From NCBI RefSeq assembly GCF_014203395.1, contig NZ_JACHIW010000001.1:2046001-2110000 (forward strand): a DNA stretch of 64,000 nt, written 5' to 3'. This stretch comes from Saccharopolyspora phatthalungensis. Its GTDB lineage: Bacteria; Actinomycetota; Actinomycetes; Mycobacteriales; Pseudonocardiaceae. Below are positions 24,559 to 31,531 of this stretch, in pieces. Below the pieces are notes generated by a model that was given only the letters and a program-made list of their open reading frames with translations, had not been told where the DNA came from and searched no databases. How positions within the stretch are numbered: position 1 is the first letter of the stretch; the number at the start of each line of letters is the position of its first letter. The position numbers were made by a program, and so were the translations under genes.

Positions 24559-26193
24559 TCGCGCTTGACTGGTGTCGGAGTCAGCTCCGGCCGCGCTTCG
24601 GGACCGGTTGTCCGGGTCGCCGACTCCTTGCCCGAACCGCCCGTCACCCCCGCGCCCGCCGACCCGACCGCCGAAGCGGCGCGCATCCGGCCGGCCGCCG
24701 ATGCCGTGGCCGACCGGCTGTTCCAGCGGGCCGGCCGAGTTGAGGGCGACGCGAAAGCGGTCTTGGAGACGACCGCCGCGATGGCGATCGACCCGGCGCT
24801 GATCTCGCAGGCCGAACAACTCGTCACCGGCCGCTCATTGCCCGCGCCGCGCGCGGTGCACGAGGCCGCCAACGGCTTCGCGGACGCGCTGCGGGAAGCC
24901 GGAGATTACCTGGCCGAACGCGCCCGGGACGTGCAGGACGTCCGGGACCGGATCATCGCCGAGCTGTCCGGAGTGACACCGCCCGGCATCCCCGAATTCG
25001 AGCGGCCGAGCGTCCTTATAGCCCGCGACCTCGCGCCCGCCGACACCGCCGACCTCGACCCGGATCTGGTGCTCGCGCTGGTCACCGAGGAAGGCGGTCC
25101 GACCAGCCACACCGCGATCTTGGCGCGGGCACTGGGCATTCCGGCCGTGGTCGCGGTCCGCGGGCTGCTCGCGGTGCCGGACCTGGTCGGCGCGGTCGTG
25201 GACGGCGACCGCGGTTCGGTCGAAACCTCCGGCCAGGCGGTGGCCGTCCAGGTCGCGGAACGAGCCGGGGTCGGCGAATGGAACGGCGTCGGTGCCACCG
25301 CGGACGGCGTGCCGGTCAAGGTCGTCGCGAACGTCGGATCGGCCGCCGACGCGCGTGCCGCCGTCGCGGCCGACGCCCAGGGAGTCGGCCTGTTCCGCAC
25401 CGAGTTCTGCTATCTCGGGGCCGATGACGAGCCGGCTATTGAGACGCAGCGGACCGCGTACCACGAGGTGATCGCGCCGTTCGCGGGCAAGCCCGTCATC
25501 GTCCGCACGCTCGACGCCGGTGCGGACAAGCCGCTGCCCTTCCTCGGCATGGGGGTGGAGCCGAACCCGGCGCTCGGCGTGCGCGGTCTGCGGGTGGCCT
25601 TCGACCGGCCCGACGTGCTGGAACGGCAGCTGGAGGCGATCGTCGGTGCCACGGCAGATTCCGCCGCCGAGGTGTCCGTGATGGCTCCGATGGTCGCCAC
25701 CGTCGACGAAGCCGCCTGGTTCGCCGACCGGGTGCGGGCCGCGGGACTGCCGCGCGCCGGAGTGATGATCGAGGTCCCGGCCGCCGCGTTGAGCGCGGCG
25801 GAAATCCTCGACGCCGTCGACTTCGTCAGCATAGGCACCAACGACCTCGCCCAGTACGTCTTCGCCGCGGACCGGATGGCGGGCGCACTCGCCCAGCTCA
25901 ACGACCCCTGGCAGCCTGCGTTGCTGCGGCTGATCGCCAAGGTCGGCGACGCGGGACGGGAGCTCGACAAGCCCGTCGGCGTGTGCGGCGAGGCGGCGTC
26001 CGACCCGCTGCTGGCCGGCGTCCTCGCCGGGCTCGGCGTGACCAGCCTGTCGATGGCTGCCGGCGCTGTCCCGGCGGTCGGCGCCGCGCTCGCTAAGCAC
26101 CCGTTCGCGACCTTCCGGCAAGCTGCCGACGCGGCGCTGTCCGCACCGACCCCGTCCAGGGCCCGCGAAGCGGTCCGCGCCGCCCTCGACTGA
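24556..26193 (+). CDS. ptsI: PTS enzyme I (phosphoenolpyruvate-protein phosphotransferase)
   Basis: 545-residue cytoplasmic enzyme that autophosphorylates from phosphoenolpyruvate and passes phosphate to HPr. The phospho-histidine is H185 in GGPTSHTAILARALG. The PEP-binding barrel has GVGLFRTEFCYL, RTLDAGADKPLPFLG, ALGVRGLRV, MIEVPAA, FVSIGTNDLAQY and the active-site Cys in GVCGEAASD. The only reasonable start is ATG 24556; AGGAGG lies 14 nt upstream, with the dre palindrome in between. No ptsH or EII gene is adjacent, so those are encoded elsewhere. Confidence 0.95.
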   Translation: MSRLTGVGVSSGRASGPVVRVADSLPEPPVTPAPADPTAEAARIRPAADAVADRLFQRAGRVEGDAKAVLETTAAMAIDPALISQAEQLVTGRSLPAPRAVHEAANGFADALREAGDYLAERARDVQDVRDRIIAELSGVTPPGIPEFERPSVLIARDLAPADTADLDPDLVLALVTEEGGPTSHTAILARALGIPAVVAVRGLLAVPDLVGAVVDGDRGSVETSGQAVAVQVAERAGVGEWNGVGATADGVPVKVVANVGSAADARAAVAADAQGVGLFRTEFCYLGADDEPAIETQRTAYHEVIAPFAGKPVIVRTLDAGADKPLPFLGMGVEPNPALGVRGLRVAFDRPDVLERQLEAIVGATADSAAEVSVMAPMVATVDEAAWFADRVRAAGLPRAGVMIEVPAAALSAAEILDAVDFVSIGTNDLAQYVFAADRMAGALAQLNDPWQPALLRLIAKVGDAGRELDKPVGVCGEAASDPLLAGVLAGLGVTSLSMAAGAVPAVGAALAKHPFATFRQAADAALSAPTPSRAREAVRAALD

Positions 26194-26218
26194 ATCCTCC
26201 GGTTGCCTTGGACACCGC

Positions 26219-26236
26219 CGATTTCGCGCGAAATCG
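26219..26236. repeat. Dispersed GATTTC-N4-GAAATC palindrome, copy 2
   Basis: A perfect 18-bp palindrome (GATTTCGCGCGAAATC plus one flanking base pair), 25 bp after the ptsI stop. It lies between convergent ptsI and the SARP gene and probably acts as a two-way terminator or binding site. Confidence 0.65.
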
Positions 26237-26263
26237 CCTCGAACAATTCACACTTTGTGGGGG

Positions 26264-27043
26264 TTAAGCCCGGGATCGGGCGAGGACCGGGCGCACCAGG
26301 TCTCGCAGGTGCGGCGACGGCTCGATGCCGAGCTCGCGGTCCAGCAGCCGCTCGTAGCGCTGGTAGTGGCGGACCGCCTGCGCCGGATTGGCCTGCTGCA
26401 GCAGCACCTTGACCACCGCGCAGTGCGCCGTCTCCCGGAACGGCTCCACCTGGGTCGCGGCCTGCGCGATCTCCAACGCCGTCGCCAGATGCCGGGACTG
26501 CACCAGCCGTTCCGCGGCCATCTCCAGCGCATGCACCTGCAACTGCTGCAGGCGCTCGCGTTCCGTCAGCACCCAGTCGTCGTACCAGCCGGGCAGGAGC
26601 GGGGCGTGCCGCGCCAAGTCGCGGCCAATCTCCGCGCAGTCCGCGGGCGATTCGGTTGGGTCCTGGCGCAAAAGGTAGCGACCGGCGGCGACCAGGCCAT
26701 CGACGTCCAGTGACACCAGCGGCGCGAGTTCAAGCTCGTGCGAGGTGCTGATCACCGCGCCCTGCGCACGCTGGCGCACCCGCCACAGCGTGGTCCGAAG
26801 ATTCGCCAGCGCGCTCTGGTCGTCACTCTCCGGCCACAAAACACCGGCCACGTAGTCACGTTGCGTGCGTCCGCGCAGCGCCAGGAAGGCGAGCAGCCGT
26901 TGCCCATTGCTGGACATCGGCACGCCATCGCCCCCCGCGTGCAGGTCCCACCCGCCGAGCAGCGACAGCCGGAATTGCTGATCGGGCTGCGCCGGGGTCC
27001 GTGCACGTCGGCGTGTCATCGGACGCACTGTTCCACCGGTCAT
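26264..27043 (-). CDS. SARP-type transcriptional activator (wHTH + BTAD)
   Basis: 259-residue SARP-family regulator. The N-terminal OmpR-like winged helix spans about residues 24-95 (FRLSLLGGWDLHAGGDGVPM, LLAFLALRG, VLWPESDDQSALANLRTTLW). The bacterial transcriptional activation domain follows (about 110-255: LLPGWYDDWVLTERERLQQL, AVRHYQRYERLLDRELGIEP). SARPs activate peptide and antibiotic biosynthesis genes by binding direct heptamers at 11-bp spacing. Three such heptamers lie in the promoter of the nearby peptide genes (29200-29228). The ATG at 27043 has a GGGGG-rich RBS. It follows the protease gene on the same strand, after a terminator, so it has its own promoter or partial readthrough. 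Confidence 0.88.
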   Translation of the reverse strand: MTGGTVRPMTRRRARTPAQPDQQFRLSLLGGWDLHAGGDGVPMSSNGQRLLAFLALRGRTQRDYVAGVLWPESDDQSALANLRTTLWRVRQRAQGAVISTSHELELAPLVSLDVDGLVAAGRYLLRQDPTESPADCAEIGRDLARHAPLLPGWYDDWVLTERERLQQLQVHALEMAAERLVQSRHLATALEIAQAATQVEPFRETAHCAVVKVLLQQANPAQAVRHYQRYERLLDRELGIEPSPHLRDLVRPVLARSRA

Positions 27044-27238
27044 AGTTCCCCCCTCGACAGGCCTGCCACAGGGCTTCAGGGGGGCGACACGGCTTGCCGT
27101 CCCTTCCCCAGAAACCCGGAGCACCGGCGGGGACGCCGGAAGCAGGTCCCACATCCGTGCCTATCGGGGGTGCTCCGGTCGGTTGTTACGGCACTACTCA
27201 CCGTGATTTTCGGTTCTGAACTGGCTGCGATACGTATG

Positions 27239-27269
27239 TGGGGCTCCCACACCCCCCGTGGGAGCCCCA
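27239..27269 (-). terminator. Hairpin terminator after the M50 protease gene
   Basis: A perfect 12-bp stem, TGGGGCTCCCAC (27239-27250) with GTGGGAGCCCCA (27258-27269), and a 7-nt loop, 15 bp beyond the protease stop on the minus strand. It separates the protease from the SARP gene. Confidence 0.75.
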
Positions 27270-27283
27270 TGAAGGAGCACAAC

Positions 27284-28618
27284 TCAGGCGCGCACAGCAC
27301 GATGGCGTCCGCGTGTGCTCCGTGGCTTGCGTTGGGCGATGCGCCGGGAGATCCGTCGGCCGACCCGCACCACGAACGCGGTCGCGCCTACCCACGGCAG
27401 CAAAAGGATGATCATCGCGACCACTGCCAGCAGCGCGGTCCAGAAATGCCCCTGCCCGACACCGTTCGCCAGCATCGTCCAGTAGTCCTGTCCTCTGGTG
27501 AACACCCGGGACAGGTAGACCGGGAGCCGCCAGAGCAGCAAACCCACCGCGACCAACAACGTGGGCACCACGATCAACACCCAGGCGGCGACGATGATCC
27601 GCACCCGCGGCCGCAGCCCGGTGTAAGCGTTGGGCTGGCCGCCGTCGCCCCGGCGCCCGGTGAGGCGTCGCAGGAACGGGGCGACCTGTGAGAACAGGTT
27701 CGGCACCCCGACCAGGTCGCCAAGGATGTAGTAGCCGTCCATGCGCAGCAGAGGCAACATCTGCTGCAGCATCTGGATATGGCTGAGCGCGATGAAGACC
27801 AACAGTGGTTGGAAATGCGTCAAATCGTAGATCCCGGCCATGGCCAGAATGAAAATGGCGTTGAAGTAGACGCCGCCCAGGTCGGTGCGTAGTCTGCCCC
27901 GCCGGTCCAGCCGGTATGCGTCGGTGACGTTCGTGTAGAAGCAGGGAATGATCAGCATGATGCCGACGCCTATCGCGCCTGGCTTCGCCCCGCCATAGTG
28001 GCATCCCGCGGCGTGGCCGACCTCGTGGAACAACGTGCTGGCCAACACCAGGCCCATCAGCAGCAGCACATGCGCCGGTTCGCCCACGGACTGCTGGAAT
28101 GCCGCATCGATGTAACCGGAGCCGATCAGCCACGCATCGAACGCGAGCAACCCACACAGCACAAGAATTACGATCACGGGTGCGTACAACGGCGCGAGAA
28201 TCGCCGCCGCCACGCGCACCACCCGAGCAGGCGCGAACACGCCGTGCATGGCCAAGGACAGCAGCGGATCCGCCTTCGGTGGCTCGGCGATCGGCTCCGA
28301 CAGAGTGGCGACGCCGAGCGGATGCAGTTTCTCGTTGATGAGGAATGCCGCGCCGACGGCGGACACTTCCTTACCAGTCGCCTGCGACACTCGCGCAGCC
28401 ACCTCGGCCAGCTGCCGGGTGCCGTCGATCGCGGCCGCGAGCTGGTACAGCAACGGTGACACCAACACCATCTGACCGTCGCCGCGGGAGATCAGGTAAC
28501 GCGGTTCATCAAAGCCGCTGCCCTCGTATTCCCCGCACAACGACACTCCGTCGGCCAGTCGCGCAACCGCCTGCTCGTCGGTCTCTTCGACGCAGTCGGT
28601 CTGAGTGACTTCTGACAT
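27284..28618 (-). CDS. PqqD-like/M50 membrane metalloprotease
   Basis: 444-residue polytopic membrane protein. The N-terminus (about 30-105) resembles a PqqD/RiPP-recognition domain (YLISRGDGQMVLVSPLLYQL, LAEVAARVSQATG, AFLINEKL). A site-2-protease-like membrane domain follows, with zinc motif H198-E199-x-x-H202 (TLFHEVGHAAGCHYGG) and the second motif RMDGYYILGD with metal ligand D294. At least six hydrophobic helices are visible, and the tail is basic. The RBS is AGGAGG at 5 nt from the ATG. It lies downstream of two small peptide genes, which are its probable substrates. It could process, export or modify the peptides; the family is often annotated 'putative peptide zinc metalloprotease'. 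Confidence 0.85.
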   Translation of the reverse strand: MSEVTQTDCVEETDEQAVARLADGVSLCGEYEGSGFDEPRYLISRGDGQMVLVSPLLYQLAAAIDGTRQLAEVAARVSQATGKEVSAVGAAFLINEKLHPLGVATLSEPIAEPPKADPLLSLAMHGVFAPARVVRVAAAILAPLYAPVIVILVLCGLLAFDAWLIGSGYIDAAFQQSVGEPAHVLLLMGLVLASTLFHEVGHAAGCHYGGAKPGAIGVGIMLIIPCFYTNVTDAYRLDRRGRLRTDLGGVYFNAIFILAMAGIYDLTHFQPLLVFIALSHIQMLQQMLPLLRMDGYYILGDLVGVPNLFSQVAPFLRRLTGRRGDGGQPNAYTGLRPRVRIIVAAWVLIVVPTLLVAVGLLLWRLPVYLSRVFTRGQDYWTMLANGVGQGHFWTALLAVVAMIILLLPWVGATAFVVRVGRRISRRIAQRKPRSTRGRHRAVRA

Positions 28619-28688
28619 GGCTTCCTCCTGCGAACCCGGTCAAGTGCGGGTAGATGCACTGGGTTGAGCGCTGTGGCGAGCAGGTGAG

Positions 28689-28723
28689 CCTGGCCGGGAG
28701 CGAGCGCTTCGCTCCCGGCCAGG
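28689..28723 (-). terminator. Strong hairpin after peptide gene B
   Basis: A perfect 15-bp stem, CCTGGCCGGGAGCGA (28689-28703) with TCGCTCCCGGCCAGG (28709-28723), and a 5-nt loop, 8 bp beyond the peptide B stop. There is no U-tract. It may stabilise the peptide mRNA or limit readthrough into the protease gene. Confidence 0.65.
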
Positions 28724-28731
28724 CGGGACCG

Positions 28732-28902
28732 TCAGAACTGGTTGATGACCTGAGCGGCCGTGGCCTGCGAACCGAAGAGCGCCACAGCCGTGTTGACCGC
28801 CACGATTGTGTTGATGTCAGGGAACAAGTTGCAGCAGCCCCCCAGGGCTTCGCGCTGCGGGAGCAGTTCTGCGGACTGGCTAGAAAAATCAAGAACGTCC
28901 AT
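28732..28902 (-). CDS. Candidate precursor peptide B
   Basis: 56 residues, ATG at 28900-28902 with RBS GAGGAG at 7 nt. The N-terminal segment (MDVLDFSSQSAELLPQREAL) looks like a leader with the motif LPxREA. Then come GGCCNLF and a hydrophobic C-terminal part (PDINTIVAVNTAVALFGSQA, TAAQVINQF). The last 29 residues are nearly identical to peptide A, including an exact NTAVALFGSQATAAQVI run. No signal peptide or known bacteriocin motif is evident. The position directly upstream of a PqqD/M50 protease suggests a RiPP-like or signalling peptide; maturation is unknown. Confidence 0.8.
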   Translation of the reverse strand: MDVLDFSSQSAELLPQREALGGCCNLFPDINTIVAVNTAVALFGSQATAAQVINQF

Positions 28903-28924
28903 GTTGCATCTCCTCGTGTTGGAG

Positions 28925-28964
28925 CCCGGCCGCCCACCGCGCGCAGCAGCAGTGGGCGGCCGGG
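28925..28964 (-). terminator. Strong hairpin between the two peptide genes
   Basis: A perfect 13-bp stem, CCCGGCCGCCCAC (28925-28937) with GTGGGCGGCCGGG (28952-28964), and a 14-nt loop, 4 bp beyond the peptide A stop. Together with the hairpin after peptide B, it would give graded expression: peptide A, then peptide B, then the protease. Confidence 0.65.
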
Positions 28965-28968
28965 GGTG

Positions 28969-29127
28969 TTAGCGACTGACCTGGGTGATGACCTGTGCGG
29001 CCGTGGCCTGCGAACCGAAGAGCGCCACAGCGGTGTTCTTCGCCACGACGGTGTTGATGTCAGGGCCGAAGAACCAGCAAGCTTCGCGCTCGGGCAGTAC
29101 CTCAGCGAACTCGTACGAAAACTCCAT
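28969..29127 (-). CDS. Candidate precursor peptide A
   Basis: 52 residues, ATG at 29125-29127 with RBS AGGAG at 6 nt. The sequence starts MEFSYEFAEVLPEREACWFF, sharing the LPxREA motif with peptide B. It continues GPDINTVVAKNTAVALFGSQ and ends ATAAQVITQVSR. It has one Cys (C17). It is first in the peptide-peptide-protease set on the minus strand. Its promoter region carries three direct heptamers at 11-bp spacing, consistent with control by the nearby SARP. I know no named family for this peptide. Confidence 0.8.
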   Translation of the reverse strand: MEFSYEFAEVLPEREACWFFGPDINTVVAKNTAVALFGSQATAAQVITQVSR

Positions 29128-29199
29128 GATCTGCTCCTGTTCGCATCAACGGAATTTCGACTGCGGCTTCGCGCCGCTGGAAACGAGTACGCCAGAGGT

Positions 29200-29228
29200 C
29201 CGTCACCGCCCCGTCACCACTCCGTCAC
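29200..29228 (-). promoter_or_regulatory. Three direct heptamers at 11-bp spacing (SARP box)
   Basis: CCGTCAC occurs at 29200-29206, 29211-29217 and 29222-29228, with exactly 4-bp spacers (GTGACGG on the peptide strand). SARP-type and OmpR-type winged helices bind such heptamers on one face of DNA. On the minus strand, a possible -10 (TACTCG) begins about 10 bp after the last repeat, and peptide A starts 73 bp downstream. Confidence 0.7.
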
Positions 29229-29370
29229 GCGGTGTCGTGGTGCGCCGGGTGACGCCCTTGGTCACAGTGGGTAATGCCCTGCGTGCCCTGGGGAAACACC
29301 ATCCGGTTGAAAGCCGTTGTCGGTGAATCGGGTGAACCTGGAAAATCCTGTACAGACCGCTGTCACCCAA

Positions 29371-29410
29371 TGAAAAAGGCCCCTGCGCCCAGACCGGGCG
29401 CACGGGCCTT
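29371..29410 (-). terminator. Rho-independent terminator after the response regulator
   Basis: A 15-bp stem with one mismatch (29376-29390 with 29396-29410) and loop AGACC. It is followed on the minus strand by a run of U residues (AAAAA at 29373-29377 on the plus strand). It separates the two-component genes from the peptide cluster, so the peptides have their own promoter. Confidence 0.85.
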
Positions 29411-29513
29411 GACCAGCCTTTTCAATTGTCCTGGCAGCGCCGTGGCCGCTTGGCCGGGTGTCCGGCCCGCCGGTACCCACATCGCCGCGCGAACCCGGTG
29501 CGGACCGGGCGGT

Positions 29514-30188
29514 TCAGGCTTCTTCGGCGTCGGCTTCCTGGTCCAGGCCGTGTTCGATGGCGTAGCGAGCGAGTTCGACCCGGTTGTGAAGCTGCAGCTT
29601 GCGCAGCGTCGACTGGACGTGGTTCTCCACCGTGCGGTGCGAGATCACCAGCTTCTTCGCGATCTGCCGGGCGGTCATCCCCTTGGCGACCAGCCGCAGC
29701 ACCTCGGTCTCCCGGTCGGTCAGCTGCGGCGCCTGCGAATCCGAATCCGGGGTGATCGCCATCCGCCGGTACTCCCCGAGCACCAGCCCGGCCAGCCCGG
29801 CGGTGAACACCGCGTCGCCGACGGCGGTACGCCGCACCGCGTCCACCAGTTCCTCGACCGATGCCGACTTGACCAGGTAACCGGAGGCCCCGGCCTTGAC
29901 CGCCTCCAGCACGTCGCTGTGCTCCCCGCTGGCGGACAGCACCAGCACCCGCGTGCCGGGGATCTCCTGGGTGATCTGCAGGGTGGCGTTGACCCCGGAG
30001 GTGTCGCCCAGGTTGAGGTCCATCAGCACCACGTCGGGCTTGACGGTCCGCGCGATGCGCAGCGCGGACGCGGCGTCGCTCGCGGTGGCCCGCACCTCGA
30101 AGCCGCGCTCCGTCAGGTCGCGGGCGACTCCGTCGCGCCACATCGGGTGGTCGTCGACGACCATCACGGTGACGGGCGGCTCGCTCAT
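29514..30188 (-). CDS. NarL/FixJ-family response regulator (MacR-like)
   Basis: 224 residues. The receiver domain (about 1-125) has the acidic pair D12-D13, the phosphoacceptor D57 (VVLMDLNLGD) and the conserved Lys in GYLVKSASVEEL. The C-terminal LuxR-type helix-turn-helix is LTDRETEVLRLVAKGMTARQ with HRTVENHV. It is translationally coupled to the histidine kinase gene through a 4-bp overlap (30185-30188). The pair resembles streptomycete MacRS, which affects membrane and envelope proteins. Its targets here are unknown; the adjacent peptide promoter is one possibility. Confidence 0.92.
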   Translation of the reverse strand: MSEPPVTVMVVDDHPMWRDGVARDLTERGFEVRATASDAASALRIARTVKPDVVLMDLNLGDTSGVNATLQITQEIPGTRVLVLSASGEHSDVLEAVKAGASGYLVKSASVEELVDAVRRTAVGDAVFTAGLAGLVLGEYRRMAITPDSDSQAPQLTDRETEVLRLVAKGMTARQIAKKLVISHRTVENHVQSTLRKLQLHNRVELARYAIEHGLDQEADAEEA

Positions 30189-31369
30189 CGTTTTCCTCCT
30201 CTGCGGCGCTTGGCCGGGGGCGCCCCTGGACGGGGCACCCGGATCTCCCACTCCGTTCCCTCGCCGGGCGTGGTGTCCAGCATGATCGTGCCACCCATGT
30301 TCTCCACGCGACCCCGAATCGACTTGGCCACGCCCAACCGGCCTTCGGCGGCCGCTTCCTCCAGTCGGCCGTCGGGGATGCCCGGTCCGTCGTCGCGAAC
30401 GCTGAGCACGACCGCGTCCGGCAGTTCTTCCAACAGCACCCATGCCTGGGCGGCCGTGCCGGCGTGCTGCTCGACGTTCGCCAGGGCTTCCCGAGCCACC
30501 GCGAACAGGTCGGTGCTCAGGGGTTCCGGCAACCGCACCGGATTGCCCGGGGTTGACACGTGAATCCGGCCGGTGCGCAGCACCTGCAACCGCGCGGCGA
30601 GGTCGGTCTCACCGTTTGCGGTGGTCTCCTGCGGCGTGGTGGCGACCAGCGCACGCAGCGCGATCTCTTGCTCCCCGGCGAGTTTCGCCAGCTCGGAGGC
30701 TTCGCCACCGAGTTCCGCGCCGCGTCGCCGCACCCGCGCGAGCACCTGCAGCACGCTGTCGTGGATGTTGCGCGCCAGCCGCTCCCGCTCCGCGGTCGCG
30801 GCCTCCGCGCGCAGGGCGCGAGCGAGCCGATCGGTGGACTTGCGCGCGGTGTCCGAGGCCAGGCCGATCACCAGGCCGGTGCCGACCAGCAGCAGGGTGT
30901 CGAGCGACATCGCCGAATCGCTGTAGCCGCGGATCAGGTAGTTGTTGGCGGCGGTGATGATCCCGGTCGACAGCCCGCCGAGCATGCCCCACTGGGACGC
31001 GGCGGCGGTGACCATCGTCGGGTGCCAGACCGTCACCACTGACGGATCGTTGCTCAACATCTGATCATCGGAGAGGATGAACTCGTTGCTGAGGAATAGC
31101 GTGGTCACCACCACACAGTCGATCAGCACCATGCGGTTGGTGCGTCCGGCACGGGACCAGTAGCGCCAGACGGTGAACACCGTCCACAGGCCCATCGAGA
31201 CGATGACCACCAACGCCAACCACGGCCGGCGGTAGTCGTCGAACTGGACGATCACCCAGAAACACGCGTACAGGAACGTCACCACGCGGAACACGTTGTG
31301 CCCGCGCCACAACGGCGAACGACCGTCGGCCACTTGAGGTTGACGTGACAGCTGTTGCGGACTGCCCAC
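30185..31369 (-). CDS. DUF5931-type sensor histidine kinase (MacS-like)
   Basis: 394-residue HPK7-type sensor kinase. It has four to six hydrophobic N-terminal helices (about 27-170: VVTFLYACFWVIVQF, LALVVIVSMGLWTVF, MVLIDCVVVTTLFL and others). The dimerisation motif is ERLARNIHDSVLQVLARV with phospho-H203. The HATPase domain has FAVAREALANVEQHA and VRDDGPGIPDG. GTG at 31369 is preceded by GGAAGGAG at 5 nt. Loops are short, so the signal is probably sensed in or near the membrane. It forms an operon with the response regulator and is divergent from a diguanylate cyclase gene. Confidence 0.9.
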   Translation of the reverse strand: MGSPQQLSRQPQVADGRSPLWRGHNVFRVVTFLYACFWVIVQFDDYRRPWLALVVIVSMGLWTVFTVWRYWSRAGRTNRMVLIDCVVVTTLFLSNEFILSDDQMLSNDPSVVTVWHPTMVTAAASQWGMLGGLSTGIITAANNYLIRGYSDSAMSLDTLLLVGTGLVIGLASDTARKSTDRLARALRAEAATAERERLARNIHDSVLQVLARVRRRGAELGGEASELAKLAGEQEIALRALVATTPQETTANGETDLAARLQVLRTGRIHVSTPGNPVRLPEPLSTDLFAVAREALANVEQHAGTAAQAWVLLEELPDAVVLSVRDDGPGIPDGRLEEAAAEGRLGVAKSIRGRVENMGGTIMLDTTPGEGTEWEIRVPRPGAPPAKRRRGGKR

Positions 31370-31531
31370 ATTCGCTCCTTCCCAGCGGACCATCCTGCCG
31401 TACGCCAGGCGTTGGCAGCGGGAACCGGATCGCGCACGCTGCGTGTCTGGGATCACGACCAGCGACGACGCGAATTGCCCGGGTGGCGTGCATCGGCGTG
31501 GCGGGCCGCTGTGCGAGGCTCGTCGAGGGAG

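Follow-up and report, generated by a model that had tools for sequence, protein, structure and literature searches.

The closest described relatives of the system reported here are two peptide-processing proteases, MpaP of the daptides and EpeP of the epipeptides. MpaP is described in PMC10036551 as a site-2 protease with a RiPP (ribosomally synthesized and posttranslationally modified peptide) recognition element (RRE) fused to its N terminus; it is said to remove the leader from its substrates, and daptide loci encode several short precursors each, with the leader motif ELExMEAP. EpeP is presented as an M50 membrane protease with a small peptide substrate and is thought to cleave and export EpeX (PMC7614699, PMC10885120). 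Here, we describe a related locus in a stretch of 64,000 nucleotides (nt) from Saccharopolyspora phatthalungensis (assembly GCF_014203395.1, contig NZ_JACHIW010000001.1, positions 2,046,001 to 2,110,000), referred to below as the window. An original prediction made from the letters alone had placed two paralogous peptides of 52 to 56 residues (peptides A and B), an M50 protease and a Streptomyces antibiotic regulatory protein (SARP) on one strand, and all four open reading frames (ORFs) are indeed present. We consider it probable that these genes form a self-contained production cassette for secreted peptides.

The window shares three features with the daptide loci, as these are described in PMC10036551: an RRE-type domain fused N-terminally to a site-2 protease, more than one short precursor, and a leader motif, ELLPxREAL, that resembles ELExMEAP. 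With EpeP it shares an M50 membrane protease next to a small peptide. However, the modifying enzymes and transporters of both systems were not found among the nine neighboring proteins tested with NCBIfam (selected between 22244 and 33975, SARP included), which contained neither a RiPP-modifying enzyme nor an ATP-binding cassette (ABC) transporter. Unlike in daptide loci, the nine included neither an oxidative decarboxylase pair nor an aminotransferase, methyltransferase or ABC transporter; a terminal Thr was present in only 4 of 162 substrates, with the window cores ending in R and F; and the window protease stayed below the curated daptide_HExxH cut-off. Unlike in EpeXEPAB, neither a radical SAM epimerase nor an EpeAB-type transporter was among them, the protease carries a fused RRE-like domain, and the LiaK/YydH cut-off was not reached. 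The claim that radical SAM, lanthionine and YcaO enzymes and an ABC transporter are absent therefore held for the nine proteins. The RRE-site-2 protease fusion aside, the cassette tested as neither a daptide nor an epipeptide system. Precursors and protease, joined by a dedicated activator, are all that it retains, and on present evidence it works like the common core of the two.

The original prediction had named a lack of conserved linkage between such peptides and this protease as an outcome that would speak against it, and linkage was found. A search with the peptides only, in 394 genomes of the class, gave 38 matches in 17 genomes, all of them among the 58 genomes that carry the protease, and 36 of the 38 had a family protease 117 to 867 nt away, on their own contig and strand. 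The remaining two, both in genome G258, are at the start of contig C87, and the protease of G258 is at the end of contig C40. The close peptides have the common leader motif AELLPxREAL, whose L, P and R are invariant in the close set, as the cores are not; distant leaders show the variants ELLPxRT, LPDREQMS and LPDKEV. A profile of 28 close leaders was a fair test of linkage, being trained only on close relatives. With a threshold of 8 bits, it detected a leader upstream of 43 of the 80 distant proteases, with 1/80 on the opposite strand and 0/58 downstream as controls; for the close proteases, training loci included, the counts were 23/23 upstream, 0/23 on the opposite strand and 1/18 downstream. 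A regular expression widened after the variants had been seen, and hence descriptive, found one to three such ORFs within 1.8 kb of 100 of 103 proteases (7/103 on the opposite strand), the 103 being those of 106 distinct proteases with at least 900 nt upstream. The three misses were L123, with 100 N upstream, and L168 and L065, for which substrates with LPDKE and LPAKE leaders were called separately. In other classes of the phylum, a substrate was recognized at 7 of 10 loci, five by motif and two by eye.

At E 0.01, a profile of the 28 leaders with their cores matched 122 of 5.8 billion proteins, and among the 120 matches listed, all proteins named by their source were hypothetical or uncharacterised. 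No Pfam or NCBIfam model passed its cut-off for the two window peptides or for five distant substrate types; all matches were sub-threshold, such as Gasdermin at E 0.006 to one long substrate. PHROGs did not match the protease or the two window peptides, and the papers listed from the open-licence literature dealt with daptides, epipeptides, RRE-Finder and RiPPs in general, none of them, as judged from titles or the opening of abstracts, with this peptide-protease family. A partial protein filed under Salmonella sp. NW246 (P0006) holds the whole peptide A of S. spinosa (P0005); its contig of 229 bases suggests contamination of that assembly.

Indirect evidence supports translation of both peptide genes. 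dN was smaller than dS in 12 of 12 pairwise comparisons, six per peptide, among the window, S. shandongensis, S. elongata and S. spinosa, which fits translated peptide genes under purifying selection. Furthermore, 5-base matches to a ribosome site precede both ORFs, and the two-peptide layout is the same in the three named species, which hold the nearest named loci.

The protease was matched by NCBIfam daptide_HExxH at E 6.9e-28 (97.8 bits; cut-off, 300) and by the LiaK/YydH model LiaK at E 6.6e-12 (45.6 bits; cut-off, 225), and Pfam Peptidase_M50 did not detect it. Its AlphaFold2 model had a pLDDT (predicted local distance difference test score) of 84.2 and a pTM (predicted template modeling score) of 0.80. 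In structure comparison, the N-terminal domain was RRE-like, as the proposal of a PqqD-like domain had anticipated, at moderate Z: the model has three strands and then three helices, as in leader-binding domains, and the lasso-peptide B1 proteins 5v1v and 6jx3, whose fold binds the leader, were matched. Unlike the window domain, lasso B1 is free-standing and acts together with a cysteine peptidase and a cyclase, according to PMC10885120. The membrane domain resembled SpoIVFB and RseP. H198, E199 and H202 are invariant in 69 aligned proteins, as are D294 and G295; the HExxH motif, a second conserved Asp and the site-2 protease fold, by which M50 site-2 proteases are recognized, are thus all present. 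A sequence profile of the protease had no match among solved chains at E 1. The model and these comparisons indicate a protease in which a putative RRE-like domain is fused to a site-2 protease.

The putative activator matched Pfam BTAD at E 4.7e-19. Its ORF had been listed as 26264 to 27154 and is present there, but the start is more likely at 27043, with GAGGGGGG directly before it, since the alignment of relatives begins at about that point. Upstream of peptide A lie three perfect GTGACGG repeats at 11-bp steps, the last of which ends about 73 bp before the gene. According to PMC5930380, a SARP operator consists of three heptamers separated by 4-bp spacers, which gives an 11-bp period, and the PimR operator reported there likewise has three heptameric direct repeats with 4-bp spacers before its target gene; unlike in that operator, the heptamer here is GTGACGG and not CGGCAAG, and the target would be a peptide-protease operon and not a polyene regulator gene. 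Both marks of a SARP regulator, the BTAD domain and 11-bp-spaced heptamer repeats at a putative target, are therefore at hand. GTGACG at all three places, with CTGGCGTACT behind, was conserved in 14/14 aligned loci and in 3/3 further ones, 17/17 syntenic loci in total, several of which are near-identical relatives. In the 8.5-Mb genome, the repeat pattern occurred once at up to three mismatches, its own shifted overlap aside; among 6,000 random 350-nt windows from the loci, a triple with up to two summed mismatches was found in 34 and a perfect one in 3. CTGGCGTACT is a possible -10 region; a sigma-70 scan found no promoter-like site.

A related SARP lies divergently beside the cassette in six further loci of other genera or families (L048, L135, L136, L160, G384 and G424), and in L223 (G424) and L224 (G384) a different heptamer recurs every 11 bp, with 0 and 3 summed mismatches, respectively. 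Of 249 genomes of the family, 83 had a SARP match at E 1e-30, 18 of these beside the cassette by position; 57 class genomes with the protease had a SARP match in 10, beside the cassette in 3. At two loci without a cassette within 13 kb (L221 and L222, in G092 and G187), a 44%-identical SARP adjoins what by eye is a carboxylase-like biosynthetic cluster.

Of 17 Saccharopolyspora genomes, 9 had a SARP match at E 1e-25, and these were precisely the 9 with the close protease. The response regulator that flanks the cassette was found in seven of the eight genomes without it, each time 16 to 256 bases from ptsI, and in 7/7 of these the peptides, the protease and SARP were not found in between; the eighth had no match to the flanking response regulator. 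Since the flanks lie side by side in seven cassette-less genomes, the peptides, protease and SARP form a unit, and the link of SARP to the cassette is supported because of this presence and absence as a block and because of the operator-type repeats. One of the eight genomes, G063, has a distant protease elsewhere. At a threshold of E 1e-20 or better, with distant members included, the protease family was carried by 49/249 genomes of the family, 58/394 of the class and 23/296 of the phylum, samples that overlap.

The cores behind the leader were analyzed in 162 unique substrates. Their length ranged from 33 to 466 residues (median, 50.5), with the longest substrate class at 210 to 494 residues and with repeats. 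Median Lys+Arg content was 0.1% and median net charge −3; the charge was 0 or below in 87% and +2 or above in 9%, and at least two Cys were present in 19 cores. Some cores are Asn/Ala/Val rich, like those of the window; others have Asp-rich repeats, Gly-rich tails or Cys. In the model of peptide B, the core block had a pLDDT of 85 to 93 and the leader one of 52 to 58 (pTM, 0.35), and a Foldseek search of the PDB at E 10 was negative; a beta-type core would be a guess from the sequence. The low charge, small residues and repeats favor a role as structural or surface material, as far as composition can tell. Homology of the short cores to an extracytoplasmic domain of, or beside, the distant proteases was considered, and with a best E of 3 for the core profile it is not claimed.

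These data suggest the following course. SARP would bind the GTGACGG repeats, conserved as they are, and switch on the peptides and the protease. The precursors carry a common motif, and the predicted leader would end near AELLPxREAL(GG). The N-terminal domain, to judge from its fold and the genetic linkage, may bind this leader, and the intramembrane HExxH site may remove it at or just after the motif, by analogy with the daptide protease MpaP. The core would then exit the cell, possibly via the same protease, as proposed for EpeP. Because most cores are neutral or acidic, with much Ala, Gly, Asn, Val and Ser, and because they grow into long repeats in other genomes, they are most likely surface or matrix material and not cationic antimicrobials, the least certain step.

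Several observations weigh against such a cassette. Site-2 proteases usually cut within membranes, and a 19-residue Kyte-Doolittle mean of at least 1.6 was reached in only 14/162 cores, with 0.99 and 1.38 for the window peptides, so few cores look membrane spanning. Foldseek with the protease model found nothing in the PDB at E 0.001, the best match being SpoIVFB at E 0.23, and the RRE matches in structure comparison were tied with non-RRE proteins, which lowers confidence slightly. The same three-repeat test found no operator in L048, L135, L136 and L160 despite the related SARP, and the gene cluster next to the 44%-identical SARP of G092 and G187 is unrelated. A tree of the flanking genes places six of the seven cassette-less strains in one clade; thus, the match of presence and absence reflects perhaps one or two gain or loss events and not seven. 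Finally, 3 of the 10 proteases from other classes had no recognisable substrate within 1.5 kb.

The scope examined was the neighborhood, and enzymes for posttranslational modification could be encoded elsewhere, which also counts against the cassette as self-contained. The locus would then be part of a genuine RiPP pathway whose modifying enzymes are encoded at a distance, and the RRE-protease would act as the last step of that pathway. RRE domains usually serve RiPP pathways, according to PMC7470986, the close relatives MpaP and EpeP act on modified peptides as their sources describe them, unclustered maturation genes are reported for lanthipeptides in PMC8960859, and 19 of the 162 cores have at least two Cys. 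However, in a clustering of neighbors at the 81 of 82 loci that had a protease match (L184 was dropped), no recurring neighbor was recognized by eye as a modifying enzyme, the clusters being without family-search annotation, and Gly-rich, Asn-rich and long-repeat cores do not suggest one common chemistry. We regard a pathway of this kind as unlikely. The membrane domain, with its likeness to SpoIVFB and RseP, would also suit regulated intramembrane proteolysis, with an anti-sigma-type regulator as the substrate and unrelated peptides next to it, but one leader motif ties the peptides to the protease across many genera, and no recurring sigma or anti-sigma gene was seen by eye among the listed neighbor clusters; this explanation is most improbable and already disfavored.

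Two further readings accept the peptides as products and differ in their use. Exported cores could be pheromones sensed by a neighbor, for example the upstream MacS-type kinase and response regulator; the small size of the peptides, the dedicated activator and the adjoining MacS-family kinase and regulator would fit. Yet the response regulator is kept in the seven genomes without the cassette, the regulator cluster (cluster 2) is at this place in only 20/81 loci, and substrates of 200 to 490 residues with the same kind of leader are unlike pheromones, so that signaling seems a distant prospect. We judge EpeX-like antimicrobial or cannibalism peptides to be just as improbable as signaling: the closest protease analogues do serve EpeX and the daptides, the latter described in their source as synergistic hemolysins, but the cores are almost free of Lys and Arg and most have a negative net charge, and no immunity transporter occurs at a fixed place, the one ABC-type ATPase cluster being found in 7/81 loci at scattered positions.

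The cassette is read from the minus strand in the order terminator-like site, GTGACGG repeats, peptide A, peptide B, protease, hairpin and SARP, followed by convergent ptsI (Table 1). Its upstream neighbor is the response-regulator gene, with the terminator-like site behind it; the rho-independent terminator proposed at 29371 to 29410 corresponds to this site, and the ptsI boundary was confirmed, with the end of ptsI at 26193. The hairpin would separate the response-regulator gene from the peptide operon; in a consensus scan, the stretch had six terminator-like sites versus a shuffled mean of 2.2. The hairpin between the protease and SARP is strong, folding at −27.7 kcal/mol (z, −3.1), equalled by 2 of 200 shuffles, and Rfam had no match in 26000 to 30000. 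Upstream of the cassette, NCBIfam identified a NarL-type response regulator (29514 to 30188) and a MacS-family sensor kinase (30185 to 31456).

Table 1. Features of the peptide-protease locus in the window
Feature	Position	Strand	Basis and remarks
Precursor peptide A, 52 aa	28969-29127	-	ORF; predicted leader about residues 1-17, motif AEVLPEREA, cleavage position inferred
Precursor peptide B, 56 aa	28732-28902	-	ORF; predicted leader about residues 1-22, motif AELLPQREALGG, cleavage position inferred
RRE-like domain + site-2 protease, 444 aa	27284-28618	-	NCBIfam sub-cut-off matches, AlphaFold2, structure comparison
RRE-like (PqqD-like) domain, protease residues 14-108	28295-28579	-	Structure comparison
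HExxH motif, protease residues 198-202	28013-28027	-	Alignment
SARP activator (BTAD domain), 259 aa with corrected start	26264-27043	-	Pfam BTAD; alignment start of relatives
Putative SARP operator, three perfect GTGACGG at 11-bp steps	29200-29228	-	Repeat search, alignment
Invariant CTGGCGTACT, possible -10 region	29186-29195	-	Alignment; promoter role inferred
Terminator-like hairpin, TTTTT tail	29378-29395	-	Consensus match only
GC hairpin without T run, possible attenuator or stabiliser	27239-27269	-	Folding

The same genome holds a second, distant cassette on the minus strand (L047:6726-8598; C1, about 4455725 to 4457597), with a protease and a 124-residue precursor that has the leader VEFLPARTVM and a Gly-rich core. 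It adjoins a Gly-rich 444-residue protein, whose cluster is present in 6/81 loci. A protein with a signal-peptide-like start lies directly downstream of the protease in L048, L145 to L149, L151 to L153, L156, L159 and L160; by BLAST it falls into one group with the C-terminal domain of longer proteases, and it is possibly a third component. In some family proteases (P0071, L159, L160 and L053), the fusion partner is a MinD/ParA-type ATPase or a staphylococcal-nuclease-like domain. One protein group lies near the protease in L055, L056 and L140; in the L140 member, the piece that was tested has a match to DUF2807, a putative adhesin domain.

The original prediction, which is supported in part, had held a new class of processed peptide, possibly signalling or surface-active, to be plausible, with the membrane protease as perhaps the sole factor for maturation and export. 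The system is not wholly new, since the daptide MpaP and the epipeptide EpeP are proteases of the same kind; nevertheless, the gene set seems to represent a so far undescribed route to secreted peptides. A bolder view, which we hold possible rather than probable, is that one membrane protein is a complete secretion machine for unmodified leader peptides across the phylum: the RRE would read the leader, and the site-2 protease core would cut it and export cores of even several hundred residues, which would assemble into surface fibers or coats with the companion domain that is fused to, or encoded just downstream of, many such proteases. With one protease gene and one leader motif, the proposed cassette is directly testable. 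If the cassette is what we propose, SARP regulators would gain a non-antibiotic target, and leader-guided site-2 proteolysis would be a general route to secreted peptides and repeat proteins in Actinomycetota and not merely the finishing step of a few modified peptides.

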